The translations under genes were made by a program, and so were the position numbers. A stretch of DNA of 64,000 nt from Fidelibacterota bacterium (GTDB lineage: Bacteria; Fidelibacterota; UBA8477; JABMPR01): the NCBI GenBank assembly GCA_018673925.1, contig JABHBL010000022.1, forward strand, positions 62,001-126,000, given 5' to 3'. The notes under the pieces are model-generated. The model was given only the letters and a program-made list of their open reading frames with translations, made no database searches and was not told the DNA's origin. Below are positions 22,318 through 39,844 of the stretch, one piece after another. Numbering within the stretch: the first letter of the stretch is position 1; every line of letters begins with the position of its first letter.

Positions 22318-23223
22318 TTGAAAAATATTAATCCAAAAATATTCCTGCCTGTTCTACTATTCCTCCTTTGTTTTGGGATTTCCTATGTATTCATCATGGA
22401 TATTGAAACTCACATTCCTGAACCAGTGTCCAAATTGGATGAGAAGAAAGAGACCATCTATTTTGGAGTGATTTCAAGATATTCTCCCAGATCAATCGTG
22501 AGTGGATACCAACCATTAATGGAATACCTCACGAACAATACACCCTACAATTTTAAATTGAAGCTTAGCCGGAATTATTTAGAGACCGTTGACCAACTAG
22601 CACTTGGTCGTATTGATTTTGCTTCGCTCGGTAATTATACCTACATCCATGCACATAAGAATTACGGGGTTCGGTGTATTGCTATGCCAATAAATAGCGA
22701 TGGGGACATTGAAAATTATGATGATATCATCGTTCCTCAAAATTCAGGAATTAAAAACCTGGAAGAATTAGCAGGTAAGTCATTTGCTTTCGCCTCGAAG
22801 CAATCATTCAGTTCATGGATGGGCATATGGATGTTGAAACAATCCGGTGTAGAATTAGCAGATTTATCACGCTATGAAAATTTGAGTTATCATGATCTGG
22901 TTGCAGAAAAAGTTCTTAGAGGCGATTTCGATGCAGGAATGGTTAAATCTGTGGTTGCTCGATCCTATGAGGAGTCAGGAATTCGAATCCTGGCCAGATC
23001 CCCAGCCATTCCCAGTGTCCCTCTCGTGGCAGCTGCTCATGTTGATACCTCTCGCATACGCGTGGTTCAAGCAGCCCTTTTAGAACTAAGCTCACTCATA
23101 GAAAGTGGTGAAATATCGACCTCAGGCTGGGATACTGAAGTTGCCAATGGATTTGTGGCAGGCCAAGACAGTCTTTACAATTTTCCTAGACAGATCTTGG
23201 ATGATATAGAGCAAGAGATGTAA
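22318..23223 (+). CDS. PhnD-like periplasmic phosphate/phosphonate-type binding protein
   Basis: 301 residues from TTG 22318 (weak SD). One N-terminal hydrophobic helix (~7-27) acts as a signal or anchor. The body follows the PhnD/SBP_bac family: 'YFGVISRYSPRSIVSGYQPLMEYL', in short the 'YQPLMEYL' opening, then 'LGRIDFASLGNYTYI' and 'FDAGMVKS'. Such proteins bind phosphonate, phosphite or phosphate esters for ABC uptake. No ABC ATPase or permease is present. Instead its stop overlaps the histidine kinase start by one base, so it probably serves as the sensory receptor feeding that kinase, as known for several PhnD-like proteins linked to two-component systems. Confidence 0.8.
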   Translation: MKNINPKIFLPVLLFLLCFGISYVFIMDIETHIPEPVSKLDEKKETIYFGVISRYSPRSIVSGYQPLMEYLTNNTPYNFKLKLSRNYLETVDQLALGRIDFASLGNYTYIHAHKNYGVRCIAMPINSDGDIENYDDIIVPQNSGIKNLEELAGKSFAFASKQSFSSWMGIWMLKQSGVELADLSRYENLSYHDLVAEKVLRGDFDAGMVKSVVARSYEESGIRILARSPAIPSVPLVAAAHVDTSRIRVVQAALLELSSLIESGEISTSGWDTEVANGFVAGQDSLYNFPRQILDDIEQEM

Positions 23224-24680
23224 TGAAACTCATAAACAGCATTCATGATAAGCTTGTTTTCAGAATTGGGTTAAGTCTCTCGATTGTTCTTTTGGTTCTT
23301 TTCTTTGCCATCATGACTTCGCAAAAAGAAACCATTATCGCAAAACATCGAACTGTTGCCACAACCATGATTCAAACTGCCATTATTCCCATTAACGATG
23401 CTCTTTATCTTGGTGGAGCTGATAACGATGATTTTTTGCAATCTTTTCTCAAAAATTTTGTACTGGAATATCAAGGTGAGATGAAGTTTGCCCTCATTCT
23501 CGGTGAAGGGGGACGAGTGATCGCCCACTCTGATATTTCACAGATTAATGAGATATACTCAGATGTCTACAGTAATTCTGCACTGGAGTCCCTGGATCCC
23601 CAATTTCATATCTATAGGGATAGCAAATTAGGCGGGGTTATGGAAATATCAGCACCACTTGGATTAATCACACTCTCACATGGTGCAGTTAGATTGGGCC
23701 TCGATTCTCAACCACTGGAAAGCGAACTCCGTAGCACCATGCTTTTTATCATTGGTATGATTCTATTAACCCTGGTACTTGTCATTTTTATAGTTTTACG
23801 AATTAGCCGAAACGTCACACGGGGATTGAGACATACAGCTGAAGCCATTGATGCCATAGATTTTCAAACTTCTGAGCCTCTTGAACTCCTTGAGACTGAT
23901 GATGAAATTGGGCTGCTTAATGACCGCTTTAAACGTCTTCAGGAGCGTTTGATCAATGCCCGATACAGCATGGAAATAACAAATAAAAATTTGGTACAGA
24001 CCGAAAAACTGGCCGCTATGGGACGCATGGCTGCCGGCGTTGCTCACGAAATCAATAATCCACTTCTGGGATTAAAGAATTGTCTCCATTTGCTACATAT
24101 TGATCCAGAGAATCAGGCCGATCATATACGGCTTCTTAAAGATGGACTGGATCGCATTGAGATCATTGTGTCCAGGTTGCTGGAGGGTGCCCGCAAAAAA
24201 ACAGGTACCATCAAGGACTATGATTTCAATAGAAGTGTGAGAGATGTTCTTAATTTGGTTGGTCACAGGCTTTCTAAAGAGAAGATTATCACTCAAGTGC
24301 AGCTGAATGACAAGATGCCACCTGTCTACAATAATAAATCTGGCTTTGAAGAGGCACTTTTAAATATCTGCATGAATGCACTTGATGCCATCGGCAGCGT
24401 AGGAACAATCTATCTGGAAACAGAAATCAGGGACAACAATGTTGCCGTCATTGTAGGTGATTCTGGACCTGGCATCCCCAGTGCAGAAAGATCAAGAATG
24501 TTTGAACCTTTTGTCACCTCAAAAGAAGTAGGGAAGGGGACTGGATTAGGATTATATGTATCCAGAGAGATTATTGGTTCCATGGGTGGTGAAATAAGTT
24601 ACTCAACCAGTAATCTTGGCGGAGCTGAATTCACCATTGAACTACCTATCCAAATCGAGCTTGACGAGGAAATGGAATAA
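23223..24680 (+). CDS. Membrane sensor histidine kinase (NtrB/ZraS-like)
   Basis: 485 residues. TM1 is ~13-31, a periplasmic domain of about 140 residues follows, TM2 is ~172-194, then HAMP (~195-245), a HisKA helix with phospho-acceptor His275 in 'GVAHEINNPL', and HATPase_c (~355-475) with N-box 'NICMNALDAIG', 'GDSGPGIP' and 'GTGLGLYVS'. All catalytic blocks are intact. Its start overlaps the stop of the PhnD-like gene and the regulator follows by 1 bp, so the three make one signalling operon. The ligand is inferred to reach it through the binding protein. Confidence 0.92.
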   Translation: MKLINSIHDKLVFRIGLSLSIVLLVLFFAIMTSQKETIIAKHRTVATTMIQTAIIPINDALYLGGADNDDFLQSFLKNFVLEYQGEMKFALILGEGGRVIAHSDISQINEIYSDVYSNSALESLDPQFHIYRDSKLGGVMEISAPLGLITLSHGAVRLGLDSQPLESELRSTMLFIIGMILLTLVLVIFIVLRISRNVTRGLRHTAEAIDAIDFQTSEPLELLETDDEIGLLNDRFKRLQERLINARYSMEITNKNLVQTEKLAAMGRMAAGVAHEINNPLLGLKNCLHLLHIDPENQADHIRLLKDGLDRIEIIVSRLLEGARKKTGTIKDYDFNRSVRDVLNLVGHRLSKEKIITQVQLNDKMPPVYNNKSGFEEALLNICMNALDAIGSVGTIYLETEIRDNNVAVIVGDSGPGIPSAERSRMFEPFVTSKEVGKGTGLGLYVSREIIGSMGGEISYSTSNLGGAEFTIELPIQIELDEEME

Positions 24681-24681
24681 A

Positions 24682-26034
24682 ATGTTAAAAATACTACTTG
24701 TTGAAGATGAACGCATAAATCGAATTACACTACAAAAGTTACTGGAGCATGCAGGTCATGCTGTAACCTCAGTAGAGGACGGTACAGCGGGACTAGACGC
24801 CGTTCAAAACGAGACCTGGGACGTAGTCCTCACTGACTATCGACTCCCCGGTGCTGACGGTCTGGAAATCCTTGAAGAAGTCAAACGAATTTCACCGGAC
24901 ACTCAAGTATTGATCATGACAGCGTTTGCCACAGTTGAAAACGCTCTCTCTGCCTTGAAAAAGGGTGCCTTTGACTATCTCACAAAACCTTTTGATCCTG
25001 ATGAATTATTCCATCACCTCGCCAGAATATCTGCCACCCGGGCCTTAAACTCTGAGAACGAAGTGTTGCGAGCTTCACTAGCTGAGTTGAAAGTGTCTCC
25101 TGATCTAATTGGGCAATCGGAAATTATGCGTGAACTTTTCGAAAAAGTAAAGATTGTAGCGGAGAGCGAGCACACGGTTCTGATTCAGGGAGCCAGCGGG
25201 ACGGGAAAAGAAAAGATAGCCAATGCGGTTCAAGTATTGAGTGAACGTCGCGAAAACCCTTTTGTAAAAATTAATTGCTCAGCCCTGAGTGAAACTCTTT
25301 TTGAAACAGAAATGTTTGGGCATGAGAAAGGAGCATTTACTGGAGCAGTGAAACGAGCCATTGGACGCTTCGAGAGGGCCAAGGGTGGAACTATTCTACT
25401 AGATGATATTGATGATTTGAGTATGCGGCTGCAAACCAAGCTTCTGCGAGTGATTCAAGAAGGTGAGATTGAGAGAGTAGGGGGCACCGAAGTAATTCCA
25501 GTCGATGTCAGAATCATTGCCGCTACCAAAATTGATCTGAAGTCCCTGGTTGAAAAGAAGTCCTTTCGGGAAGATTTGTATTATCGTCTTAATGTGATTC
25601 GACTTATTGTCCCCACACTGAATGAGAGGAAATCGGACATTCCATTATTGGCTCATTTCTTCTTGTCAAAGCTGAGTTCCGAAAAACAGTTATCAGCAGA
25701 GTTGATCAAGTATCTCATGGAGCTGGACTGGCCAGGCAATGTAAGGGAGTTGGAACACCTCATCATGCAAATGTCGGTGTTTTGCCGAAAAAACGTGATC
25801 GACTTGAATGATATTCCTGATTCATATCTTCCCATTCAAAGAAATATGGATGCAAAGAAGGGTGGTGAATCATCCTTGACCCAACAAGTGAACGAGTTTG
25901 AATTACAGATAATTAATGAAGCCATAAAAATACATCAAGGGAATCAGAAAAAGGTAGCTGATTCATTGGGAATCCCCAGGACGACCTTGAGGAGTAAATT
26001 GTTAAAACATGGTCTCGTGGATTTAAAAGATTAA
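24682..26034 (+). CDS. NtrC-family sigma54-dependent response regulator
   Basis: 450 residues from the ATG at 24682, one base after the kinase stop; a longer frame into the kinase gene lacks support. The receiver domain has phospho-acceptor Asp52 in 'LTDYRLPGADG' and Lys in 'LTKPF'. The AAA+ domain has Walker A 'GASGTGKE', an intact GAFTGA loop at 217-222 for sigma54 contact, and Walker B 'TILLDDID', where the usual DE is DD. The C-terminal Fis-type helix-turn-helix ends in 'GIPRTTLRSKL'. It should activate a sigma54 promoter from upstream sites, and such sites lie in the gap directly after it. Confidence 0.93.
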   Translation: MLKILLVEDERINRITLQKLLEHAGHAVTSVEDGTAGLDAVQNETWDVVLTDYRLPGADGLEILEEVKRISPDTQVLIMTAFATVENALSALKKGAFDYLTKPFDPDELFHHLARISATRALNSENEVLRASLAELKVSPDLIGQSEIMRELFEKVKIVAESEHTVLIQGASGTGKEKIANAVQVLSERRENPFVKINCSALSETLFETEMFGHEKGAFTGAVKRAIGRFERAKGGTILLDDIDDLSMRLQTKLLRVIQEGEIERVGGTEVIPVDVRIIAATKIDLKSLVEKKSFREDLYYRLNVIRLIVPTLNERKSDIPLLAHFFLSKLSSEKQLSAELIKYLMELDWPGNVRELEHLIMQMSVFCRKNVIDLNDIPDSYLPIQRNMDAKKGGESSLTQQVNEFELQIINEAIKIHQGNQKKVADSLGIPRTTLRSKLLKHGLVDLKD

Positions 26035-26132: not shown

Positions 26133-26168
26133 AGACGATATCTCGTCTATAGTGACGATATCTGGTCA
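26133..26168. promoter_or_regulatory. Paired near-palindromes, candidate enhancer sites for the NtrC-type regulator
   Basis: Two 16-nt near-palindromes, AGACGATATCTCGTCT (26133-26148) and TGACGATATCTGGTCA (26153-26168), agree at 13 of 16 positions and start 20 bp apart, about two helical turns. The first extends to an 8-bp perfect inverted repeat (ATAGACGA/TCGTCTAT). They lie about 107 nt upstream of the -24 element, the usual distance for dimer-pair enhancers of NtrC-type activators. Binding is inferred. Confidence 0.6.
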
Positions 26169-26255
26169 ATAGTTTAGTGCATATTTCCCGTTGGTCATGA
26201 AATGTCCATGCTATAAGTGCAGTATAAACAAGAGTAAAGGTTCACGGGTCATTTG

Positions 26256-26270
26256 TGGCATACCATTTGG
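26256..26270 (+). promoter_or_regulatory. Sigma54-type (-24/-12) promoter
   Basis: TGGCA at 26256-26260 and TTGG at 26267-26270 have exactly the sigma54 spacing (GG, 10 nt, G-C position). Only the last -12 base differs (G for C). Transcription would start near 26282, about 45 nt before the first CYTH gene, which has an AAAGGA site. A sigma54 activator is encoded immediately upstream. Confidence 0.55.
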
Positions 26271-26326
26271 AATACATAAGGTCTGTGAATTAAAAAATAG
26301 ATCTATAAAAATAAAGGAAAACAAAC

Positions 26327-26926
26327 ATGGCAAAGATTGAATTAGGCAAGATTATCCCAAGATGGGAATGGCGAACTTTTGGTGATGAGTTTGGTGTTGC
26401 TGAAGAGAATATCAAAGCCCACGAATGCACGCGCGAAATTGAAAGTAGCGAAGTGTACATCCTTTCCAAAAAAAGTGGTGAGAATATCAAGATCAGAGAT
26501 ACACTCATGGACATCAAAGTATTGAGAAATGCCGAGAATGATCTGGAACAATGGTTTCCAATTATGAAAGCTACTTTTCCAATCGGTGCTGAAGAAGCTG
26601 CTGAAGTATTTAAGGCTGCCGGTGTTGAGGTTGAATTAAATGACGCTGATACCTGGGAATATGATGCCTTTATCTCCAAAATGGTTGATACGAATTCCGA
26701 TCTCAAGGCAGTTGGTGTTTTCAAAAAACGCTATGGCTATATGATTGAGGGTGCAACAGTTGAAATTGCAGATCTTACCATTGATGGAAAAGAAACGAGA
26801 ACAACGGCAGTTGAAGATGCTGATCCCGAATTGGTTACGAGACTCGTAGCAAAACTCGGCCTCAATGGTTACGAAAACATAAGTTATATCAAGGCTATGC
26901 GTCGCATGGTCGGTTTTGAGGACTAG
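26327..26926 (+). CDS. CYTH-like protein (tentative)
   Basis: 199 residues, soluble, no signal peptide. The first half contains 'WEWRTFG' and a strand pair 'EVYILSKKSGENIKIRD' then 'LMDIKVL'. The second half has 'VFKKRYGYMIEGATVEIADL', 'ETRTTAVEDAD' and 'NISYIKAMRRMVG'. Alternating Lys/Arg and Glu strands of this order resemble the CYTH/triphosphate-tunnel barrel, and a true CYTH gene follows 3 bp later. The classical ExExK opening is absent, so activity may be altered or regulatory. It is the first gene of the predicted sigma54 operon. Confidence 0.55.
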   Translation: MAKIELGKIIPRWEWRTFGDEFGVAEENIKAHECTREIESSEVYILSKKSGENIKIRDTLMDIKVLRNAENDLEQWFPIMKATFPIGAEEAAEVFKAAGVEVELNDADTWEYDAFISKMVDTNSDLKAVGVFKKRYGYMIEGATVEIADLTIDGKETRTTAVEDADPELVTRLVAKLGLNGYENISYIKAMRRMVGFED

Positions 26927-26929
26927 ATC

Positions 26930-27394
26930 ATGGGTCAAGAAATAGAACGTAAGTTTCTGGTCACAGCCACTACTTATCGTGATCTTGCCAAAGGTACGCA
27001 TTACAAACAGGGATACCTGAATAGTCAGAAGGAACGTGTTGTACGCGTACGCACGATTGATACGACAGGCTTCATGACAGTTAAAGGAATCACCAAGGGG
27101 GCAACCCGTCTCGAATATGAGTATGAAATTCCCGCTAAGGATGCTGATGAACTACTAGATCTCCTATGCGAACAGCCCATCATTGACAAACATCGTTATA
27201 AGGTAAAAATGGGTGATTTCGTTTGGGAAATCGATGAGTTTCATGGAGAAAACGAAGGTCTCACAGTTGCAGAAGTGGAACTGCTCTCTGAAGATCAGGA
27301 GTTTCCAAAGCCTGATTGGATAGGAGAAGAAGTCACTGGAGACCCTCGCTACTACAATTCGAATTTAATCGCCAACCCTTTCACAAAATGGTAA
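26930..27394 (+). CDS. CYTH-domain triphosphate tunnel metalloenzyme
   Basis: 154 residues, a single CYTH domain. It opens with 'EIERKFLV' (Glu4, Glu6, Lys8, the ExExK signature), then 'RVVRVRTID' with the phosphate-binding arginines, 'MTVKG', 'RLEYEYEIP', 'DKHRYKV', 'WEIDEFHGEN' and 'VAEVEL', whose acidic residues hold the metal. The length matches bacterial tripolyphosphatase-type enzymes (NeuTTM, CthTTM class) rather than class IV adenylate cyclase with its larger neighbours. The probable reaction is hydrolysis of inorganic or organic triphosphate. Its position in a run of phosphate transporters fits PPPi or polyphosphate use. Confidence 0.88.
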   Translation: MGQEIERKFLVTATTYRDLAKGTHYKQGYLNSQKERVVRVRTIDTTGFMTVKGITKGATRLEYEYEIPAKDADELLDLLCEQPIIDKHRYKVKMGDFVWEIDEFHGENEGLTVAEVELLSEDQEFPKPDWIGEEVTGDPRYYNSNLIANPFTKW

Positions 27395-27411: not shown

Positions 27412-28962
27412 ATGAAACAAATGCTGAATGATACGAAGGTGAAAATCACCCTCCGAGTAATTGGTTTAGTGCTGCTAGTTTTGGCTTTTCTTCTATTGGT
27501 CCCTTCAGCCAAGGCAGCCTTCCCAGAAAAACCCATTAAAATTGTTGTCTATACTGGACCTGGTGGTCTGATTGATATCAGTGCCAGAAAATTTGCAGGA
27601 GTGGCAGCAAAATACGTCGATGTAAATTTTGTTGTTGAGAATAAGCCTGGAGCCGGTGGTATTGTGGCCCTCAAAAAGGTTATTCAAGCACCTGCTGACG
27701 GCTACAATCTCTATGCTTGTACTAAGTCCAATATTGCAAAGTTCGTTCAAGTGGGTGGTGAGGGCTATGTCGATGCTCTTCACTGGACCGCAATGCTCAT
27801 GGCTGACCCGGAATGCGTCATTACAAATCGGAAATTGCCGATTCATAAGTGGAAAGATATTGTTTCGGATGCAATCGCTACTCCAGGGGAGCAAACCTGG
27901 GTAGGCCCTGCCGCAGGGGGACTGGATCATGTCACGGCTTTAAAGATTTGGGACAAATATGGGATGGATGCCAAGTGGATTCCCTTTAAGAGCGGTGGCA
28001 AAGCACTTGCTGCACTCCTTGGAGAGCAGGGGGTCGCTTATGTGGGAAACCCACGTGATGCACTTGGTAATCCCGACCTCTTTATTGCGGCTGTATCTGC
28101 ACCAAAACGCCTCGATGCCTTCCCAGATGTACCCACTTTTTCAGAATTAGGCATGCCGAACCTGGAAAATGAATTCATGTGGAGAGGCTTTGCTCTGAAG
28201 AAGGGAACTCCTCCTGAAGTCATTGAATGGTATGATGAACTTTTCAAAAAAGTTTCTGCTGATCAGGAATGGCTTGATTTCTGGGCAAAGGGTGGTATTG
28301 ATGTTGCCTATGTCGCCGAGCCTGAATTCTCCAAGCTGGTGAGTGAGGATGCCAAGGTATTTGAGTATTATTTGAAGAAGAGTGACATTCTTCCAGGAGA
28401 CGCTGTTGGATTTATGGCGAAATTGGCAAGTGGCACTTCCTTTAATATACTTGCAGTAATACTTATATGTCTCTGGTTATCAGGATCATACATGGTTCAT
28501 AAATCACAATACTCGGCCATATTAGGGCGAGTATTGGTTATTGGCTTCTTTTTAATTGTGAGTATACTTTTTCTTCTCCAATCTATGAATTTTCCTAGTA
28601 GCTCAGCAGTGGGGCCTGCAGCTGTCCCACGTCTTTGGATCTTTATGTTAATCCCGCTGAACTTATTGCTGCTATTCAAAACCTTTCGAAACAACGAAGC
28701 AATAGCAGAGACAGGTCCCCGCGTAGATATCGTACTTAGCTTTGTTGGATTTCTAGTCATTTATCTATTTGCCATGCAAATATTTGGATATTTCCTCAGT
28801 ACGTTTGCATTCATCATCGCAGGTCTCTACTATCTCGGTTATCGTAAATGGCGCAACACTTTCATTATAGCTGGAGTCTGGATTTTGTTCTCTTATCTCA
28901 TCTTTTATAAAACCTTATATGTTCCGCTTCCATTGGGAATGTTATTCGAAAACCTCTTCTAA
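27412..28962 (+). CDS. TctC-TctB fusion of a tripartite tricarboxylate transporter
   Basis: 516 residues. After an N-terminal hydrophobic segment (~13-35) comes a TctC-type binding protein (~37-330) with 'FPEKPIKIVVYTGPGG', 'NKPGAGG' and 'FPDVPTFSELG', all family signatures. From ~345 to the end there are about five to six transmembrane helices resembling TctB, the small membrane subunit. TctC is normally a free periplasmic protein encoded separately, so here the receptor is tethered to its own transporter. TctA follows 11 bp downstream, completing the system. The usual ligands are citrate and other carboxylates; the ligand here is unknown and the neighbourhood points to phosphate. Confidence 0.85.
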   Translation: MKQMLNDTKVKITLRVIGLVLLVLAFLLLVPSAKAAFPEKPIKIVVYTGPGGLIDISARKFAGVAAKYVDVNFVVENKPGAGGIVALKKVIQAPADGYNLYACTKSNIAKFVQVGGEGYVDALHWTAMLMADPECVITNRKLPIHKWKDIVSDAIATPGEQTWVGPAAGGLDHVTALKIWDKYGMDAKWIPFKSGGKALAALLGEQGVAYVGNPRDALGNPDLFIAAVSAPKRLDAFPDVPTFSELGMPNLENEFMWRGFALKKGTPPEVIEWYDELFKKVSADQEWLDFWAKGGIDVAYVAEPEFSKLVSEDAKVFEYYLKKSDILPGDAVGFMAKLASGTSFNILAVILICLWLSGSYMVHKSQYSAILGRVLVIGFFLIVSILFLLQSMNFPSSSAVGPAAVPRLWIFMLIPLNLLLLFKTFRNNEAIAETGPRVDIVLSFVGFLVIYLFAMQIFGYFLSTFAFIIAGLYYLGYRKWRNTFIIAGVWILFSYLIFYKTLYVPLPLGMLFENLF

Positions 28963-28973
28963 GGAACTGAACA

Positions 28974-30467
28974 GTGGAATTACTAAGCAATTTAGGAGAC
29001 GGTTTAGCATTTGTTTTAGGTGTGGTCCCAATTTTGACCATAACTCTTGGTGTGGCTATGGGAATTGTGGCTGGCGCTACACCAGGTTTATCACCTTCAA
29101 TGGGTGTAGCATTATTAGTACCATTTACTTATGCCATGTCTCCAACACTGGCATTGATTCTTCTCGTGGCTATTTACATTGCCGCTAATTATGGTGGCTC
29201 CATCACAGCTGTCACCATTAATGCACCTGGTACACCCTCATCCGTTGTTACTGCCTTCGATGGCTACCCACTAACAAAAAAGGGAAAACCAGGGTTGGCC
29301 CTTGGTGTTTCTTTGGTCTCCTCCACAGTTGGAGGTATCATTGGGACGCTGATCTTAATCTTCTTTTCAGGACCTCTGGCAAGGTTTGCGTTGAAATTTC
29401 ATCCAGCGGAATACTTTGCTCTAGCTATTTTTGGTCTTACCACGGTCGCATCCCTTGGTGGAAAAAATTGGATTAAAGCCTTCATAGCGGCAATGTTTGG
29501 CCTTCTGTTGAATACAATAGGTATTGACCCCATCTCTGGTGTGAGTCGCTTTACTTTTGGCATTTCATTTTTGTATGATGGATTTGCATTGATTCCTGCT
29601 TTGATCGGTCTTTTTGCTCTCAGTGAAATATTCAAGCAACTGGAAGGTGGCGATTTTTCCAGCCAGGCTGCAGATTCAGGGAAACAGGAATGGCCTACAG
29701 CAAGTGCTTACTGGAAGTTGAAGAATACCATTATGCGCTCCTCTTTCATGGGAACCATCATCGGTATTTTCCCTGGGGCAGGTGCTACAATTGCTGCATT
29801 CATTTCATATGATGTTGCTAAGCGTGTCAGTAAAAATCCTGAAGAATTCGGACACGGGAGTATGGAAGGGGTGGCAGCAGCTGAAGGAGCCAATAGTAGC
29901 TCTGTAGGTGGTGCACTGATCCCGTTGCTTACACTGGGAATTCCCGGAAGTGCCTCCACAGCCGTGCTTATAGGTGCCTTGATGATACATGACCTGACAC
30001 CAGGTCCACAATTATTCATCTCGAATCCAGATATTATTTACGGACTCCTCGCCAGTCTACTGCTGGCAAATATTATCCTGCTTGCGCTTGGATTCTTTGG
30101 AAGCCGTCTCTGGATAAAAGTAACTACCATTCCCAAAACGGTATTATTCCCACTGATTTTTGCTGTATCGATTATTGGTAGTTTCGCTGTGCGGAATTCA
30201 TTCTTTGATGTTGCAGCCTGTCTGGCATTTGGAGTATTCGGATGGATTCTTCGCCGATACAACTATCCAGTTGCCCCCATCATTCTTGGGATGGTCCTGG
30301 GAAATATTGCTGAAACAAATTTTATACGTGCCATCATGATGGGAGGGTGGACCGTATTCTTTACCCGCCCGTTAAGCTTGGGCATGCTTGTGGTTGCAGC
30401 CGGTAGCTTTGCAGTACCCTTAATTCAGGCTCGAAAACAATCAAAAATTCAGGAAAGAGATAAATGA
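28974..30467 (+). CDS. tctA: TctA large membrane subunit
   Basis: 497 residues starting with GTG 28974 behind AAGGA. About twelve transmembrane helices. The TctA signatures are clear: 'GATPGLSPSMGVALL', 'YGGSITAVTINAPGTPSS', 'GIFPGAGATIAAFISY' and 'LLTLGIPGSASTAVLIGAL', the two glycine-rich loops that define the family. It uses a cation gradient to import the ligand delivered by TctC. It completes the TctC-TctB fusion upstream and overlaps the DUF47 gene by 4 bp (ATGA). Confidence 0.93.
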   Translation: MELLSNLGDGLAFVLGVVPILTITLGVAMGIVAGATPGLSPSMGVALLVPFTYAMSPTLALILLVAIYIAANYGGSITAVTINAPGTPSSVVTAFDGYPLTKKGKPGLALGVSLVSSTVGGIIGTLILIFFSGPLARFALKFHPAEYFALAIFGLTTVASLGGKNWIKAFIAAMFGLLLNTIGIDPISGVSRFTFGISFLYDGFALIPALIGLFALSEIFKQLEGGDFSSQAADSGKQEWPTASAYWKLKNTIMRSSFMGTIIGIFPGAGATIAAFISYDVAKRVSKNPEEFGHGSMEGVAAAEGANSSSVGGALIPLLTLGIPGSASTAVLIGALMIHDLTPGPQLFISNPDIIYGLLASLLLANIILLALGFFGSRLWIKVTTIPKTVLFPLIFAVSIIGSFAVRNSFFDVAACLAFGVFGWILRRYNYPVAPIILGMVLGNIAETNFIRAIMMGGWTVFFTRPLSLGMLVVAAGSFAVPLIQARKQSKIQERDK

Positions 30468-31105
30468 TTTTTAAAAAGACCAAAGGTCTAGAACTGCAAA
30501 TGGACTCGTTCCTGGATAAGATTTCTGAATCTGGTATTGTTTTTCGTCGCGGTGTGAAGAATTACATGAACAACGCTGAAAAGGATTTTAGCCGACATCT
30601 TGAGCAGATCAGAACGCTTGAGCATGAGGCAGATGAGCTTCGCAAGGCGATAGAGACCGAGTTGTATACCCAGACTCTTGTCCCGGAATCACGCGGAGAT
30701 ATACTGGCTTTAATGGAAACCAGCGATGATGTGATTGATAGAGCAACAGATACACTAAGTGAGTTTTCTATCGAAAGACCTGTAGTCCCAGAACAGTTTA
30801 GAGAAGGATTTATAGAGTTGGCCAAATCCACGGTACGAGCCATGGAGGAAATGGTGAAAGCTATGCGTGCCTTCATGCGTGACCCCCTCAATGTTCGTAA
30901 CTATCTCCACAAAGTATACCATTGGGAGAAGGAGTCGGATCGTCTCGCTGAAGATCTTAAGCGGGCAATCTTCGCTAGTGAGGACCTTAAGTTGAGTGAG
31001 AAAATTCACCTGAGATATTTCGCTCTTCACACCGATACTATTGCTGATAGAGCTGAGGATGTTGCTGACAGACTCTCTATCTATACCATAAAGAGAAGCA
31101 TCTAG
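30464..31105 (+). CDS. DUF47 PhoU-like protein
   Basis: 213 residues, all-helical, acidic and charged, with no membrane segment. The pattern 'IRTLEHEADELRKAIETEL' and 'ALMETSDDVIDRATDTL' places it in the DUF47/PhoU-like family, with the E/DxxxD metal-binding repeats. DUF47 proteins are usually encoded beside PiT phosphate transporters and are thought to regulate them. That is the case here: PiT begins 2 bp after the stop. Confidence 0.9.
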   Translation: MIFKKTKGLELQMDSFLDKISESGIVFRRGVKNYMNNAEKDFSRHLEQIRTLEHEADELRKAIETELYTQTLVPESRGDILALMETSDDVIDRATDTLSEFSIERPVVPEQFREGFIELAKSTVRAMEEMVKAMRAFMRDPLNVRNYLHKVYHWEKESDRLAEDLKRAIFASEDLKLSEKIHLRYFALHTDTIADRAEDVADRLSIYTIKRSI

Positions 31106-31107
31106 GA

Positions 31108-32208
31108 ATGTTGATCCTCCTTTTCCTTTCAAGTGGTCTCTTCCTGGGATGGTCATTGGGTGCCAATGATGCATCCAATATTTTTGGGACCGCAGTGAGT
31201 ACCAGGATGGTCAAATTCTATACTGCAGCTATTGTTGCCAGTATCTTTGTGGTGCTTGGTGCCATTGTTTCCGGTGCCGGAACCACCCATACCTTAGGAA
31301 AACTAGGTGCAGTTGATATGATTGCAGGTGCTTTTATGGTAGCTCTGGCCGCTGCTGTCACCGTATTCTGGATGACGAAACTAAGTTTACCAGTATCAAC
31401 GAGTCAGGCCATTGTTGGTGCCATTGTGGGTTGGAATATGTTTGCTGGCAAGACGACTGATATGCATGCATTAACCAAAATAGCTTCAACCTGGGTCATG
31501 AGTCCCATTCTAGCGGCAGCTTTCTCATTTGTCTTTTTCTTATTATTTAAAAAATTACTGGAAGTCTGGAAAATTCACATCTTCCGGTTGGATGCCTATA
31601 CTCGGATTGGTTTGATTGTTATCGGCGCATTTGGGGCCTATTCATTGGGTGCCAATAATATTGGAAATGTCATGGGAGTTTTTGTTTCTGTTGCACCCTT
31701 CGAGAGTTTAGAGCTGATGGGTATGAGTATTAGTGGGGTCTCTCAACTCTTTTTACTTGGAGGACTGGCAATAGCAGTAGGTATCTTTACATATTCCAAA
31801 CGGGTTATGTTGACAGTTGGGGAGGGTGTGGTAAAACTGACACCCCAATCCGCTCTTATCGTTGTGCTGTCCCAATCAATCGTTCTCTTCCTATTCGCAT
31901 CAAAAGGACTCGAAACCTGGCTTCTTGGGCACAATTTGCCAACAATTCCCCTGGTTCCTGTTTCCAGCTCTCAAGTTGTAATTGGAAGCGTTCTGGGAAT
32001 TGGTCTGGCACATGGTGGTCGCGGTATTCGCTTCAGAGTACTTGGAAAAATTGCTTCAGGTTGGGTAACAACACCTGTCATTGCAGCTGTGATCTCATTT
32101 ATCTCACTATTCTTCCTACAAAACGTATTTGATCAACAGGTTGTGAAACCGACTGAGATGATCGGCCACCATCAAATAATTTCAACTCAAGTCATCAAAA
32201 CCGGATAA
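31108..32208 (+). CDS. pit: PiT-family inorganic phosphate transporter
   Basis: 366 residues, about ten transmembrane helices. Both halves carry the PiT signature: 'GANDASNIFGTAVST' near the N-terminus and 'GANNIGNVMG' in the middle, with 'LPVSTSQAIVGAIVGWN' and 'VPVSSSQVVIGSVLG'. Pit proteins import (metal-)phosphate with protons or sodium at low affinity. It lies between the DUF47 regulator and a Na/Pi cotransporter, and its stop overlaps the next start by one base. Confidence 0.93.
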   Translation: MLILLFLSSGLFLGWSLGANDASNIFGTAVSTRMVKFYTAAIVASIFVVLGAIVSGAGTTHTLGKLGAVDMIAGAFMVALAAAVTVFWMTKLSLPVSTSQAIVGAIVGWNMFAGKTTDMHALTKIASTWVMSPILAAAFSFVFFLLFKKLLEVWKIHIFRLDAYTRIGLIVIGAFGAYSLGANNIGNVMGVFVSVAPFESLELMGMSISGVSQLFLLGGLAIAVGIFTYSKRVMLTVGEGVVKLTPQSALIVVLSQSIVLFLFASKGLETWLLGHNLPTIPLVPVSSSQVVIGSVLGIGLAHGGRGIRFRVLGKIASGWVTTPVIAAVISFISLFFLQNVFDQQVVKPTEMIGHHQIISTQVIKTG

Positions 32209-34010
32209 TGTCTCTCTTTATGAAAATATTTCGTTTCATCCTCGTACTCTCTCTAGCATCAAATCAAGTATTTGCTGCATCCACTAGCACAAATGGAAGC
32301 ATCTCATGGTGGGCACTTATCATGACGTTGTTTGGTGGACTTGCTCTCTTCCTATATGGAATGGAAAAAATGAGCTCGGGTATGAAGAAGGCAGCAGGGG
32401 ATAAAATGCGCTCGATTTTATCGGCCCTGACAAACAACCGCTATATGGGTCTCATGGTAGGTGCATTTGTTACCATGGTCATCCAGAGTAGCAGTGCTAC
32501 CACGGTTATGTTAGTGAGCTTTGTCCAGGCTGGATTAATGACATTCGTTCAGAGTTTGGGTGTGATTCTTGGTGCTGATATCGGGACAACAGTAACAGCT
32601 CAACTCGTAGCCTTTAAGTTGACTGATTATGCATTATTGATGATTGCCATCGGTTTTGGTCTCATGATGTTTGGAAGAAATGAGAACCAAAAGAACATTG
32701 GCGAATCTGTACTTGGTTTTGGAATTCTCTTTTACGGCATGAAACTCATGTCCGATGCAATGTACCCATTGAGGACATATGATCCCTTCATTACTACCCT
32801 GGCACACTTAGAAAACCCGCTTCTGGGTCTCTTGGTTGGAGCAGCGTTCACTGCTTTAATCCAAAGTAGTAGCGCATTTACAGGTATTGTCATTGTCCTT
32901 GCCCAACAAGGCTTGTTAACTCTGGATGCTGGTATACCATTGATTATGGGAGCTAATATTGGAACCTGTATCACAGCAGGATTGGCGAGCATAGGTGCAT
33001 CACGAGAGGCAAAACGGGTTGCCATGGCACATGTTATGTTCAAGATTGTAGGTGTCATGCTCTTTATTTTCTGGATCCCCTGGTTTGCTGATATTATTCG
33101 AGCAATTTCACCAGCTTCCACTGAAACAGGCATGGCGAATCTAAGTGCAGTAGTACCTCGTCAGATAGCCAATGCCCACACCATCTTCAACGTCGGATTA
33201 GCACTAGCGTTCATTCCATTCACCAGCTTCTTTGCAAGATTAATTATGAAAATATATCCAGATGTTGAAGATGAAAAAGATCTGACTATCGCTACCTGGC
33301 ATTTAGATGAATCCGCTGTTGAAACACCAGCTCTGGCATTGGATCTTGCCAGATCAGAAATAGCTAGAATGGCCAAGATCACTGGCAGAATGATGGATGG
33401 GTTCATTCATCCATTTCTCGAAGATGATCCTGGAGCAGACAAAGTTCATCCACAACTCACGATTATGGAAGGTATTGAGATTAGGGAGAAGAAGCTGGAT
33501 TTTCTGGAGAAGAAGATAAAGAAGTATCTGCTTCAGATCGGTCAGGAAGAACTCTCAGACACTCAAATTGCTGAAGTGTTTGGCATGATCACGATCTCAA
33601 GTCAAATGGAAAGTATCGGCGATGTTATGGAACGGAACTTGAGACCACTTGTGACAAAGAAACGTGCCCTACAATTGGATTTCTCTGAAGAGGGCAAAAA
33701 AGAACTTATAAAATACAATACAAAAGTATGCAAGCAGTTCAGTCGTCTGGAGAAAACCTTTTCTGCTCTGGATCCCAAACGTGCTAAAAAGGTCATGGTC
33801 AAAGAGGAAAAGTACCTGAACCTTGAAGCTCAATACCGGGAATCCCATTTCCAGCGTCTCAATGCGGCCCGCGAAGAAACGGTAGAAACTGATGCAATTC
33901 ACACCGAGTTATTGGAAATGATGAAGCAGATCAATCTCCATACAGGTGAGATTGCTAAAATTATTTATGACCTTGGATCAAACGAAGAAAATGAAGGAAA
34001 TGTAGAATGA
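32208..34010 (+). CDS. Na+/Pi cotransporter (NptA/YjbB type) with PhoU-like tail
   Basis: 600 residues. Two inverted PF02690 repeats carry the signature 'QSSSATT' (~88) and 'QSSSAFTG' (~222) within about nine helices (to ~350). The C-terminal ~230 residues are helical and charged, like the PhoU-type domain of YjbB/NptA proteins. The family moves phosphate with sodium; YjbB of E. coli exports it. Having both PiT and NptA in one operon suggests phosphate flow in both directions or over a wide concentration range. The next start overlaps its stop by 4 bp. Confidence 0.92.
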   Translation: MSLFMKIFRFILVLSLASNQVFAASTSTNGSISWWALIMTLFGGLALFLYGMEKMSSGMKKAAGDKMRSILSALTNNRYMGLMVGAFVTMVIQSSSATTVMLVSFVQAGLMTFVQSLGVILGADIGTTVTAQLVAFKLTDYALLMIAIGFGLMMFGRNENQKNIGESVLGFGILFYGMKLMSDAMYPLRTYDPFITTLAHLENPLLGLLVGAAFTALIQSSSAFTGIVIVLAQQGLLTLDAGIPLIMGANIGTCITAGLASIGASREAKRVAMAHVMFKIVGVMLFIFWIPWFADIIRAISPASTETGMANLSAVVPRQIANAHTIFNVGLALAFIPFTSFFARLIMKIYPDVEDEKDLTIATWHLDESAVETPALALDLARSEIARMAKITGRMMDGFIHPFLEDDPGADKVHPQLTIMEGIEIREKKLDFLEKKIKKYLLQIGQEELSDTQIAEVFGMITISSQMESIGDVMERNLRPLVTKKRALQLDFSEEGKKELIKYNTKVCKQFSRLEKTFSALDPKRAKKVMVKEEKYLNLEAQYRESHFQRLNAAREETVETDAIHTELLEMMKQINLHTGEIAKIIYDLGSNEENEGNVE

Positions 34011-34945
34011 CCCTGAAAATTAGAACGATTTTTATTATTGGATTTGCTTTAATCATAACTGCTTGCGCTGTTAACCCACCAGCAATTGTTGAAGTAGCGC
34101 CTGTTGAAACAGTTGAACCGGCACCTGAATATTTTCTTAACTCGAGTGAGTATAAGCTCTTACTCAACGCGGATATGTTTGGTGACTATGAGAAGGCCTT
34201 CGCCGAGTACTGGCAATTTGTTCAGGATGTAGCAGCTGCTGAGGGGATACCCGTACTAGCTAAGGAAAACCCTTTGAAACTATCTCACAAACAGGTTTCT
34301 TTCTGGGATACGGAAGGTCTTGACCTCCGAAAGAACAGCTTTTTGCTTCGTAGGAAATCAAAATATAAAGCTGGAGAAATACGCCCAGGATTCGAATTTG
34401 GTCTGAAATTTCGCCAGACTGACAAAGCGACAACTCTGTCCAAGGATCTAACAATGACTGAGGGTTATGTTCCCAAATTTGACCGGATCGAACTTGAATC
34501 TGACATTGTGTATTATTCGGCAAAGAATGGTGGCGACGATGTCACATATGCTGTCTCAAATTCAGTTCAACTTGATGATATGCCCTCAAACACATATGGC
34601 GGTTTTGTAAAAATATATCCAGTTCTTGCCACACTTGGAATTGCTGAAGAAGCTGAACTATCTAAGGTTGCAGGAGTTTTTGTAGATGAATGGATGGTCA
34701 AACCAGGTAAACTTGATTTTGGTGATGGTCTGTACGGTCGTATGGATATGAGTGTCTGGATCGTTGAAACTGAAGCAGGTGAAATGCGAATTGCTGAATT
34801 CTCCTTCGATCATGATTTCATCAAGGACAGACAATATGATGCTGAGGCCATGAAACGTTGCACAACATTTATCAATAAGCTCAATGATTATAAACCAGAC
34901 TGGTCAGAAGTGGGCAAGCTCAAAGCTGCCTATCTGTTTGAGTAA
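34007..34945 (+). CDS. Lipoprotein with CYTH-like barrel sequence (tentative)
   Basis: 312 residues. The signal peptide ends in lipobox ITAC (Cys20) and a Pro/Val/Glu-rich linker follows. Residues ~90-300 show a CYTH-like order of motifs: 'SFWDTEGLDLRKNSFLLRRK' (~98-117; the YFDT..L.LR...LRRR strand), 'EFGLKFRQTD' (~130), 'KFDRIELESD' (~158-166), and a late 'TEAGEMRIAEFSFD'. CYTH enzymes are normally cytoplasmic, so an exported relative would be unusual. The ExExK opening is missing and catalysis is uncertain. It is embedded between Na/Pi and DASS transporter genes. It could instead be an unrelated beta-rich protein. Confidence 0.55.
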   Translation: MTLKIRTIFIIGFALIITACAVNPPAIVEVAPVETVEPAPEYFLNSSEYKLLLNADMFGDYEKAFAEYWQFVQDVAAAEGIPVLAKENPLKLSHKQVSFWDTEGLDLRKNSFLLRRKSKYKAGEIRPGFEFGLKFRQTDKATTLSKDLTMTEGYVPKFDRIELESDIVYYSAKNGGDDVTYAVSNSVQLDDMPSNTYGGFVKIYPVLATLGIAEEAELSKVAGVFVDEWMVKPGKLDFGDGLYGRMDMSVWIVETEAGEMRIAEFSFDHDFIKDRQYDAEAMKRCTTFINKLNDYKPDWSEVGKLKAAYLFE

Positions 34946-34977
34946 GCGGGTCGAGATCAAACAAAAGAACTGATGAA

Positions 34978-36489
34978 TTGATGAATGCTCAAGAAATAAA
35001 TTTCGATACGAATCTGAACGTAGTTGCTCAGAGGGAATCAAGTAGGGGAGAGAATCTCACCAAGTATATTGGTTTTCCATTGGGCATCATCTTCTTTTTG
35101 ATTCTCTACCTCATGCCCACACCTGATGGCTTAACATTGGAAGCCCAGGCGGCCATAGCATCCTTTGCCTTGGCCTTAACCTGGTGGGTGACCGAACCCA
35201 TCCCCACATATGCCACATCCCTGCTACTTATGGGTCTGCTAACCTTTTTTAATGGCTGGACAGAAGATAAGGTGTTGGGTGTATTCGGATTAGAGGTGAT
35301 CTGGCTGAATATTTTGGCCTTTATCCTCAGCTCAACCCTGGTAAAAAGCCAATTAGCCAAACGCTTCGCCCTATGGATCGGTCTGCGGTTTGGACACAGT
35401 TCTTACACCATTCTTGGCGCATTTATCGTTCTTCAACTTTTTCTGGCACCTTTTATTCCAGCCACGACTGCCCGAACGGTTATGGTTCTTCCAGTGATGT
35501 TGGTAATATCATCTATCTATGGTTCTACATCAGGAAATGGAAATAATTTTGGTGTAAACCTGTTTATGCAGAACCTCCAGGGAATCAGTATTTTCTCTTC
35601 AGGTTTTATCACAGGAAGTACCTGTAATATCGTCGCTGCAGCCTTCATCTTTGAAATGGGCAATCAGAAGGTCTACTATTCTGATTGGATGTTCGGTATG
35701 CTGCCTATTACCATCATCGTTATGGCTATCTCGTGGTGGTTGGGACCTAAATATTTATTTCCCATTAAAAAGGAAGACCAGCAACCCAAGGTTAAGGGTG
35801 GCTTCGATGTCATGCGTAAAATGTTGAACGAAATGGGTGGGTTTACCGTGGCTGAGGGAAAATCAGCAGGTGTATTCCTGTTTGTCCTCTTTCTCTGGGC
35901 CACCGATCGCTTTCATGTGGGTTGGTTCGGTTTTGAGATCAGCGCTGTTATGGCAGCCCTGCTCGGTGTTGTATTTGTCTTTTTGCCAAAAATCGGTTTG
36001 TTGAAATGGAACGACGCTGATATTCCCTGGCATGTGATGATCTTTAGTGCAGGTGCATATTCCGGTGGACTCGCTTTGTTTGATTCAGGTGCGGCGCGCT
36101 GGTTGGTAGGAAGTGTTTTTGATATGGTCGGTCTTGGCGCTGATCTAAGTTTCTGGACAGTTTATATCATCATCATTGCCTTCTCTATGTACGCCCATTT
36201 ATTCTTTACAAGTAAAACGATGCGGTCCATTGTGATGATCCCAATTATTATCGCCATAGCACAGCAGTTCGGATTTGATCCTGTATCACTGGCACTACCA
36301 GCTGCCTTTACCCTGACCTGGGTAATCACCTTACCAACCAATGCTAAACCCAACCTGATCCTGTATAGCGCTGGTCAATTCTCTATTTCTGATAACTTGA
36401 AATATGGTCTCACAGTTGCTACCATAGGTGTGGTCGTCATGGTGATTGCCGGCTTTACCTGGTTCCGCTTTTTGGGGATAACGCCATGA
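34978..36489 (+). CDS. DASS-family (SLC13-like) sodium/anion symporter
   Basis: 503 residues, about eleven to twelve helices. DASS features: 'ALTWWVTEPIP', 'NILAFILSSTLVKSQLAKRFALW', 'FIPATTARTVMVLPV' (the SNT-like sodium site region) and a conserved C-terminal 'LPTNAKPNLILYSAG'. The family imports sulfate, di- or tricarboxylates, and in some eukaryotic members phosphate. Substrate is uncertain; position in a phosphate-rich operon next to Tct genes suggests a carboxylate or phosphate. The next gene overlaps by 4 bp. Confidence 0.9.
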   Translation: MMNAQEINFDTNLNVVAQRESSRGENLTKYIGFPLGIIFFLILYLMPTPDGLTLEAQAAIASFALALTWWVTEPIPTYATSLLLMGLLTFFNGWTEDKVLGVFGLEVIWLNILAFILSSTLVKSQLAKRFALWIGLRFGHSSYTILGAFIVLQLFLAPFIPATTARTVMVLPVMLVISSIYGSTSGNGNNFGVNLFMQNLQGISIFSSGFITGSTCNIVAAAFIFEMGNQKVYYSDWMFGMLPITIIVMAISWWLGPKYLFPIKKEDQQPKVKGGFDVMRKMLNEMGGFTVAEGKSAGVFLFVLFLWATDRFHVGWFGFEISAVMAALLGVVFVFLPKIGLLKWNDADIPWHVMIFSAGAYSGGLALFDSGAARWLVGSVFDMVGLGADLSFWTVYIIIIAFSMYAHLFFTSKTMRSIVMIPIIIAIAQQFGFDPVSLALPAAFTLTWVITLPTNAKPNLILYSAGQFSISDNLKYGLTVATIGVVVMVIAGFTWFRFLGITP

Positions 36490-37250
36490 AATTATTAATT
36501 ATGATCAAAACGCTTTTCGGGCTCACGATATTCACAAGTTTGCTGCTCGCTCAACAGATTGATGTGCTTGAGCAAACTGTATCTATTTCTGAAGACGGTT
36601 CTGCCCAGTTGACCTACCAGGTAATTCTCTCAGTTAGCGACAGTCTAAGCGCGGTTCAGATTCCTGCTGGATATGAGAATATGGAGATCACATCAGTTTC
36701 ATTGGATGATATTGATATCACAAACCAAACTGCAATCATCATTGATAGATCATCTCCAGTCTTTGTTATGAACTTTTACAAGAAAATTTCTGGTGAGCAT
36801 ACCATCAGTATTAATACTCAGATCAACGATTTTCTAAATTGGAATGAAGCTGGACCTGAAGAGTTTAAGACATATAACTGGGAGGTTAATTATACCAATA
36901 CATTGCCGGCCCACATTGGACGATGTGACATGACGGTTATTCTACCCTATGGTTGGAATTTCCATCGAATAACTGGAAGTGATCCAAAGTTTAAAAAGAA
37001 ACAACCCAAACCACCGTATACGTTCGCCAAGGTTGGAGATAGAGCCAGCGTTTCAATATCGAGAACTCCCATGGAATACATGGAAAATGTGGGTATTGAA
37101 TTTGCGTTTAAAAACGAGCAGAAACCCAACGTGCTCATTTGGGTAGGGATTCTGCTTAGCATACTTTATCTATATTATTTTAAGCATCTGATTCTCCGAA
37201 AAGATGCTGAACCATTAATTGATACAAATAATGACAAGGAGTCAAAATGA
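36486..37250 (+). CDS. Exported, C-terminally membrane-anchored protein of unknown function
   Basis: 254 residues. A signal peptide (to ~'LLLAQQ') and a C-terminal helix (~212-230, 'NVLIWVGILLSILYLYYF') flank a beta-rich periplasmic domain that starts 'VSISEDGSAQLTY', similar in tone to DUF2207/DUF3068-type beta domains. No catalytic residues recognised. It overlaps its neighbours by 4 bp on both sides (ATGA), so it is translated with the DASS transporter and the porin and may link inner and outer membrane parts of the system. Confidence 0.75.
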   Translation: MKLLIMIKTLFGLTIFTSLLLAQQIDVLEQTVSISEDGSAQLTYQVILSVSDSLSAVQIPAGYENMEITSVSLDDIDITNQTAIIIDRSSPVFVMNFYKKISGEHTISINTQINDFLNWNEAGPEEFKTYNWEVNYTNTLPAHIGRCDMTVILPYGWNFHRITGSDPKFKKKQPKPPYTFAKVGDRASVSISRTPMEYMENVGIEFAFKNEQKPNVLIWVGILLSILYLYYFKHLILRKDAEPLIDTNNDKESK

Positions 37251-38422
37251 AAATCCTAAAAGTGCTCTTGAGTGGTCTGATGCTATTACCACTCCTCACG
37301 TTTGGACAGGGAGTTACCGTAAGCACTGACAGTGGACTGGATGTAGTCCTTGGCGGTGAAGTGGAACTTGAGTTTATTGATGTTGAGGGAGCTGGTGGAT
37401 TTGCTAACCAGGATTTAACCTATCAGAAGGTCAGAAATCGTAGTCCACACATGCGCATTGATATGGCTGTGCTTTCAGCCCGAGTCAACTATAGCGAAAA
37501 CCTTTACTATCAAATTGAATTCCGTTTTGATGATGAAAGCGCTTATGTTGATAAACAATATGCTCGTTTGAACGTTCCAAGTATTAACACAAAGTTTGAA
37601 ATGGGAAAGAATCGCCCCTTTGTGTCTAGAAAAAGACAATCAGAAGGTTATCCGCTTGCAGGAACTGCTTTCTGGAAGGGTCGTGAAGCCCATGTCAATA
37701 GTGAAACAGAGATCAAATTAGGTGAAAATGGCAAACTTATAGGTGGATTATCATTTGCTATGAAACGTCCTCTCGGTACCGATGATGCAGCTGAAGACAA
37801 ATCATTCAAAATGATGGTTTATGATGACTACGAGCCCAAAAATGGACAGACCTTTGAATATGGGGTGAAAGCAGGAGTAGATATCGCTGGCGTTTCATTG
37901 CTTGGATGGTACTTCATGGGTGAACTCATTGATGATTGGGATTGGAAAGCCAGTCTGAAACAGTCTCTTGCTCCATACTCAAATATGGGAGATGAAACAG
38001 ACATATCTCATTATTGGATGGGTGGTAGAGCAGGATACAACATCGCTGGATTGAATTTAGTCGGTGAATATATTCAAGCTCAGGATGGATTATTGACACG
38101 TGAGGGCGCTTATGGCGAAGCATCATATTCCATGAAGGCACCGTCATTTTTGAAATCCAAAAGCATCACGCTTCTGGGACGTAATGGCTTTCTCAATTTG
38201 AAGTCAAAAAAGAACAGTGCTGGTGAAGAATTGACATGGGCTTATCTTAGTGAGGCTATGTCATGGGATAGACAAATGACTACACTTTCTGCCATGCTTG
38301 AGATTAATGACAATTTGACTCTTAAATTCGAGCATTATATTCTTGGCGAAACAACTGGGTCCGAAATTGAGTCAAGTGTGGACGACGACCAGACATTAAT
38401 GCAGATAAATTTTAGATTTTAA
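37247..38422 (+). CDS. Outer-membrane porin, OprO/OprP-like (tentative)
   Basis: 391 residues with a signal peptide (to 'LLTFGQG'), alternating amphipathic beta strands and a C-terminal Phe ('MQINFRF'), i.e. a barrel. 'YYQIEFRFDDE', 'VPSINTKFEMGKNRPFVSR' and 'HYWMGGRAGYNIAGLNLVGEY' resemble phosphate-selective porins O/P, where Arg/Lys residues line the pore. The assignment to an anion pore rests on family resemblance and operon position, last in the phosphate run with an AAGGAG site. A 51-bp gap then leads to the propeller lipoproteins. Confidence 0.72.
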   Translation: MKILKVLLSGLMLLPLLTFGQGVTVSTDSGLDVVLGGEVELEFIDVEGAGGFANQDLTYQKVRNRSPHMRIDMAVLSARVNYSENLYYQIEFRFDDESAYVDKQYARLNVPSINTKFEMGKNRPFVSRKRQSEGYPLAGTAFWKGREAHVNSETEIKLGENGKLIGGLSFAMKRPLGTDDAAEDKSFKMMVYDDYEPKNGQTFEYGVKAGVDIAGVSLLGWYFMGELIDDWDWKASLKQSLAPYSNMGDETDISHYWMGGRAGYNIAGLNLVGEYIQAQDGLLTREGAYGEASYSMKAPSFLKSKSITLLGRNGFLNLKSKKNSAGEELTWAYLSEAMSWDRQMTTLSAMLEINDNLTLKFEHYILGETTGSEIESSVDDDQTLMQINFRF

Positions 38423-39718: not shown

Positions 39719-39743
39719 TCGTTTAACCTGTTTTATGTTTGAA

Positions 39744-39776
39744 AAACCAGCCTGGTTCTGCCAGGCTGGTTTTTTT
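39744..39776 (+). terminator. Strong rho-independent terminator
   Basis: AAACCAGCCTGG pairs with CCAGGCTGGTTT around a short TTCTG loop and is followed by a run of T. It ends the propeller gene and probably the whole operon starting at 26282. Confidence 0.92.
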
Positions 39777-39844
39777 AAAATAGTTTTAGTCTTCTAAGAT
39801 TTTATTATACGTCAAATATCGTAAATGGCTCATGAGGGAATAGC

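Follow-up and report, generated by a model that had tools for sequence, protein, structure and literature searches.

A predicted sigma54-dependent switch linking an NtrC-type regulator to a phosphate/anion and CYTH operon in an uncultured bacterial phylum

Introduction

Does an NtrC-type regulator gene, followed by paired palindromes, a promoter-like element and a long run of transport genes, form with them a single regulatory switch? We asked this of a 64,000-nucleotide stretch of DNA (hereafter the window) from an uncultured marine Fidelibacterota bacterium whose 3.41-Mb assembly is 90% complete and whose closest named relatives are MAGs of Candidatus Neomarinimicrobiota. The region at issue is a 292-bp intergenic segment of 35% G+C, which extends from the stop of the NtrC-type gene (24682-26034) to ORF1 (26327-26926), the first gene of the run. 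An earlier note on this DNA had proposed that palindromes, promoter and regulator make up a sigma54 control system, with one possible weak point in the promoter.

We conclude that the intergenic region is very probably the control region of a sigma54-dependent operon of about 12 kb, activated by a PhnD-like protein, a histidine kinase and the NtrC-type regulator. The titles and abstracts of the literature on CYTH and phosphate-transport operons, on CYTH/polyphosphate and TctABC, and on phosphorus regulation in Marinimicrobia contained nothing recognisable as this locus, and our literature search found no link between Marinimicrobia and sigma-54.

Results

Directly upstream of the intergenic region lies a run of three forward-strand genes that is kept in relatives: a PhnD-like substrate-binding protein (22318-23223; Pfam PF12974, 2e-50; NCBIfam TIGR01098, 2.9e-30, slightly under the cut-off); an AtoS/ZraS-like HAMP histidine kinase with a HEINNP-type H-box (23223-24680; Pfam HisKA 1.3e-9 and HATPase_c 1.7e-21; AtoS and ZraS the best NCBIfam models); and the NtrC-type response regulator. 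The PhnD-like gene heads the trio in relatives too, its position being conserved, and its product is presumed to be the kinase's sensory partner. The regulator joins a receiver (PF00072), a Sigma54_activat domain (PF00158, 3.4e-67) and a Fis-type HTH (PF02954, HTH_8), the composition of a group I enhancer-binding protein. That an NtrC-type gene with an intact GAFTGA loop stands directly upstream, as the earlier note had it, is borne out by gene order and motif alike, and the orthologue alignment has the loop in every orthologue covering the stretch. The Walker B motif, DDIDDL in the regulator and again in every orthologue covering the stretch, has Asp in place of the usual Glu and lacks the Asp-Glu pair; in PspF this residue (Glu, E108) has been proposed to act as the switch (PMC7175178).

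On the other side of the region, the genes between 26327 and 38422 all lie on the forward strand and are separated by about 30 bp at most. ORF1 (26327-26926, 199 codons) has no Pfam or NCBIfam family match, the CYTH Pfam model included, and a profile comparison with its CYTH neighbour gave no significant match. Its AlphaFold2 model (pLDDT 94) most resembles thiamine triphosphatase, the best Foldseek match, and other triphosphate-tunnel enzymes (TTM structures); against 5a64, Foldseek gave an E-value of 4.8e-7, a probability of 1.00 and a TM-score of 0.55. By this model ORF1 has the triphosphate-tunnel (CYTH) fold, as a divergent CYTH/TTM-fold protein, and because its nearest structures are triphosphate-tunnel enzymes the operon appears to open with two CYTH-fold proteins, the second being a CYTH domain protein with an EIERKF signature (26930-27394; PF01928, 1.9e-15). 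Then follow a tripartite tricarboxylate transporter, TctABC (27412-30467; PF03401, PF07331, PF01970), encoded as a TctC-TctB fusion (27412-28962) and TctA (28974-30467); a DUF47/PhoU-like protein (30464-31105; PF01865); a PiT-type phosphate permease (31108-32208; PF01384); and a Na/Pi cotransporter (32208-34010; PF02690). The contiguous same-strand genes that make up the rest of the apparent operon (34007-38422) encode a 312-aa protein, a DASS anion symporter (PF00939/TIGR00785), a 254-aa protein and a 391-aa protein; the 312-, 254- and 391-aa proteins had no confident family match, and to call the last porin-like is a guess made from its sequence. Further downstream (38474-41083) are genes for a choice-of-anchor I protein and an NHL-repeat lipoprotein-like protein.

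The gene neighbours suggest that the operon likely serves to take up and process phosphorylated or other anionic compounds. ORF1 homologues occur in Neomarinimicrobiota, Cloacimonadota, WOR-3, Acidobacteria, rumen Clostridia and Nocardioides, and those in Cloacimonadota, WOR-3, Acidobacteria and rumen Clostridia lie beside CYTH, DUF47/PiT and TctCB/TctA genes in varying combinations. Because ORF1 homologues have such neighbours in other phyla, the phosphate/anion theme is widespread; among the genomes compared here, sigma54 control of ORF1-type genes was seen only in Neomarinimicrobiota.

The intergenic region holds two 16-nt near-palindromes, which we predict to be enhancer sites: site 1 (AGACGATATCTCGTCT, 26133-26148), palindromic at 7 of 8 pairs, and site 2 (TGACGATATCTGGTCA, 26153-26168), palindromic at 6 of 8, both conserved in relatives. 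With flanking bases included, the palindrome of site 1 lengthens to ATAGACGATATCTCGTCTAT. The sequence agrees with the earlier description of two such sites that match at 13 of 16 bases and start 20 bp apart, but their likeness had been understated, because, flanks included, the two make up a tandem direct repeat of 20 nt with 90% identity. Both palindromes together, as 16-mers 17-23 bp apart and matching at 13/16 or better, arose in 0 of 5000 dinucleotide shuffles of the 292-bp region. A position weight matrix of five sites and no window sequence (G018, a divergent congener, supplied two and other families three; close congeners were left out) ranked sites 1 and 2 first and second in the 64 kb.

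The palindromes might instead act in RNA, as a hairpin that terminates or attenuates transcription, either where the ntrC message ends or in a leader made by read-through, and in the predicted RNA fold site 1 can indeed pair into a hairpin of 8 bp. We consider this most unlikely: the intergenic region contained no U-tract, terminator pattern or Rfam match, and its fold was no better than that of shuffles (z -0.76). Across relatives, half-sites decay with no compensating changes while the spacing is kept, as expected for protein-DNA recognition.

Downstream of the palindromes lies a predicted sigma54 promoter, TGGCATACCATTTGGA (26256-26271, forward strand), with TGGCA at -24 and TTTGG at -12, which matches TGGCAYR-N4-TTGCW at 11 of 12 positions and would place the transcription start near 26282. 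Its -24 element, TGGCATA at 26256, fits TGGCAYR and is conserved in congeners, and the spacing from the -24 GG to the -12 G is 12 bp, as in the consensus. A forward-strand match this good was found in 9 of 5000 dinucleotide shuffles of the region. The promoter had been described as TGGCA-N6-TTTGG with exact sigma54 spacing, about 107 nt downstream of the palindromes; the gap is really N5, although the 12-bp GG-to-G(G) spacing is exact, and the distance holds from the end of site 1, whereas from site-2 start to promoter start it is 103 bp. The window genome encodes an intact, single-copy rpoN (PF04552, 3.6e-57). We predict that the element works as a -24/-12 promoter, and word the prediction as variant at -12 because the C of the -12 GC is missing, with G in its place, from all 10 genus genomes that have the element, the window's among them.

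Comparison within the genus and phylum ties these elements to the regulator. Among nine genus genomes, the window's included, mean pairwise identity is 0.87, 0.88 and 0.86 in the three elements vs 0.47 elsewhere in the region; the sites start exactly 20 bp apart in all nine, and the promoter lies 101-103 bp past site 2. The tenth, G014, has its ORF1 contig beginning inside the region; its element is on the ntrC contig, which breaks off within the opening codons of ORF1 and carries the promoter at 102 bp. In other families, eight genomes have a tandem element with a fixed 19 bp between starts and a -24/-12 element 57-70 bp downstream, the promoter being a perfect 12/12 match to the consensus in three of the eight (e.g. 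TGGCATGCTATTTGCT) and most other families having the canonical TTGC at their orthologous promoter. Where an NtrC-type gene stands directly before ORF1/CYTH genes, the space between them holds the tandem site together with a -24/-12 element. Two details tell against the sigma54 reading: the best -24/-12 candidate of G018 has no G at -13, and in several distant genomes one palindrome half is degenerate. The orthologues compared have about 39-93% identity, the lowest values being those of partial copies. Two congeners, G003 and G005, carry ORF1 beside NaPi and have neither an adjoining ntrC nor a tandem element, and this control of ORF1-type genes is therefore not universal.

An alternative is that the palindromes are operators of a different regulator or repressor and that transcription of the operon starts at a sigmaA-type promoter, such as one near the conserved TATAAACA block at 26213-26240. 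This additional block, TGTAAGT-N4-GTATAAACAATAG, lies between enhancer and promoter in congeners, is moderately conserved there (identity 0.68 vs a background of 0.47) and contains TATAAG/TATAAA; it could be a bending-protein site or a secondary promoter. We nevertheless regard such a reading as unlikely: the intergenic region had no sigma70-type match to an E. coli-type consensus; tandem sites go together with an adjoining NtrC-type gene; and the -24/-12 element holds its position and core while its flanks drift. The two palindromes are, on this comparative evidence, very probably bound by the adjacent NtrC-type regulator to switch on the predicted sigma54 promoter. The earlier proposal that regulator and target can be linked from sequence is supported, tandem site and promoter being co-conserved with the regulator over a large evolutionary distance.

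A genome-wide search for the site had been suggested as a check. Scanned singly with 3 mismatches allowed, the site was at background, with 316 matches vs 308 for a reversed control, and we therefore used a tandem model, trained on 13 sequences and applied to 149 genomes. This two-site model placed the element once in the window genome (E 3.5e-10), with no second copy of the tandem element in that 90% complete MAG. Outside its training set it found G119, G092, G105, G112 and G018, each time 142-209 bp upstream of an ORF1 homologue. A second target appeared in the congener G009, in which a tandem element (L193:4652-4687, G009:C237) and a -24/-12 site, TGGCATGAAAATTGG, precede the gene of a secreted protein with a lamin-tail domain (LTD), an SdiA-regulated/phytase-like propeller and a T9SS-type tail; in G016 a tandem element (G016:C48:14499-14536, in L194) precedes the gene of a related protein. 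These extra elements are as expected of a predicted regulon.

The -12 base bears on whether the promoter is sound. The G noted earlier is indeed there, yet as a lineage-wide trait and not the possible weak point it had been taken for: the base is G in 10/10 genus genomes that keep the promoter, and at the orthologous promoter of other families it is C in six and T in two. The pattern TGGCAYR-N4-TTG occurs 54 times in the window genome vs 12 for the reversed pattern, a control in which codon usage is not modelled, and just one of the 54 sigma54-like sites, the ORF1 promoter, has paired enhancer sites upstream. Thirty of these predicted sites lie outside ORFs of at least 110 codons, and their next base is A in 12, T in 10, G in 4 and C in 4. 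By comparison, intergenic sigma54 sites of Salmonella have C at -12 in 25/29 cases (PMC3844500), or in 12/15 under the filter applied to the window genome, a difference significant on either count (Fisher 1.3e-8 and 2.0e-5, respectively). Summed over 16 genus genomes, 118 sites have C (control 28) and 765 lack it (control 167). Sites without C are also found in other families of the phylum; C was present in 3/3 intergenic sites of an Acidobacteria genome and in 1/4 of G092, a phylum member with C at its ORF1 promoter, both too few to weigh.

These counts also bear on the reading that the promoter is a decayed, weak sigma54 site, with GG for GC at -12, and that the operon is transcribed mainly by read-through from the PhnD-HK-ntrC transcript. 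The canonical -12 is GC, as most of the Salmonella sites illustrate, and no terminator was found after ntrC; however, the G is fixed throughout the genus at this promoter, unlike a pattern of decay, and a base other than C is the norm at the genome's predicted intergenic sites (26/30). We judge decay to be quite improbable. Taking the predicted sites as a whole, the -12 G is not a defect, and the genus's sigma54-like sites generally have no C there.

RpoN itself diverges in its HTH. Glu378 and Arg383, in the HTH of RpoN, are reported to crosslink to promoter DNA (PMC5505868). Position 378 (E. coli numbering) is Glu in 0/30 phylum genomes and Ile in nearly all, and the change of Pro393-Arg394 to Asp-Trp is confined to the genus, family and order of the window; Arg383 and the RpoN box are retained. 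The rpoN of the window genome (G000:C38:9617-10087) has both replacements in its HTH. We put at about even the chance that the sigma54 of the genus has changed its -12 specificity, from GC to TTG followed by A, T or G, along with an HTH of the Ile378 type and Asp-Trp at 393-394, and we infer that the HTH changes and the promoter shift may be causally related.

Discussion

We suggest the following mechanism. The PhnD-like protein (22318) and the histidine kinase (23223) would sense an extracellular ligand, and the kinase would phosphorylate the NtrC-type regulator (24682). Dimers of the regulator's Fis-type HTH would then bind the two in-phase palindromes, TGACGA-N4-TCGTCA, at 26133-26168 cooperatively, and the oligomerised AAA+ ring would reach RNA polymerase-sigma54 at 26256-26271 by looping of about 90-120 bp. 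ATP-driven opening of the promoter by RNAP-sigma54 would start transcription near 26282 and drive the co-directional operon of two CYTH-fold proteins, TctABC, DUF47, PiT, Na/Pi and DASS transporters, and the porin-like protein. What the sequence shows directly is the anatomy of the elements, their conservation along with the regulator, an rpoN gene and one such element per window genome. The biochemical steps, among them binding, phosphorylation and sigma54 dependence, are inferred from the NtrC/DctD paradigm (PMC11077940, PMC7175178); the length of the operon, its ligand and its physiological role are predictions as well. ATPase and promoter-opening activity are not guaranteed from sequence, because C is missing at -12 and the Walker B Glu is Asp.

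Comparative evidence alone here ties a named regulator of an uncultured phylum to its operator and promoter. For a conserved operon of phosphate/anion and CYTH genes, the locus offers a test system ready for use. Searches for sigma54 promoters that insist on GC at -12 would miss most such sites in this lineage, given 26/30 intergenic candidates without C. Because other families keep C or T at the orthologous promoter, promoter and sigma factor can be compared pairwise, a natural series in which to study the reading of the -12 base, on which the way sigma54 keeps the promoter closed centrally depends.

Among known systems, DctB/DctD - dctA of Rhizobium has two tandem inverted-repeat sites of the TGTGCGgaaatCCGCACA type upstream of a -24/-12 promoter, and DctD is a group I enhancer-binding protein that acts on the sigma54 promoter of the organic-acid transporter gene dctA (PMC11077940). 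The window locus likewise has an NtrC-type regulator and kinase, tandem inverted repeats, and a -24/-12 promoter before transport genes; it differs in its recognition sequence, its added PhnD-like protein, its much longer operon with CYTH and phosphate genes, and its -12 without C. NtrB/NtrC - glnA, like other classical sigma54 systems, shares the receiver-AAA+-HTH regulator and the paired upstream palindromes, and ntrC is the best NCBIfam model for the window regulator, though below the cut-off. The NtrC box is TGCACCA-N3-TGGTGCA (PMC8743547). The window locus has a different box, a Walker B with DD instead of DE, and no visible link to nitrogen genes.

The operon's products have counterparts of their own. 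The second gene belongs to the CYTH/triphosphate tunnel metalloenzymes through PF01928, and the ORF1 model is nearest to thiamine triphosphatase and TTM structures; unlike the known members, ORF1 is too divergent for any Pfam or NCBIfam model. In the phosphoglycerate transport system of Salmonella, PgtC/PgtB/PgtA - PgtP, a binding protein, a kinase and an NtrC-type regulator control an anion transporter. The window has the same trio before anion transporters, but its proteins match the NCBIfam PgtA and PgtB models far below their cut-offs, its binding protein is PhnD-like, and its transporter set is another. Read against these systems, the locus would be a known kind of switch with two apparent departures from the textbook, the absence of C at -12 and the Asp in Walker B.
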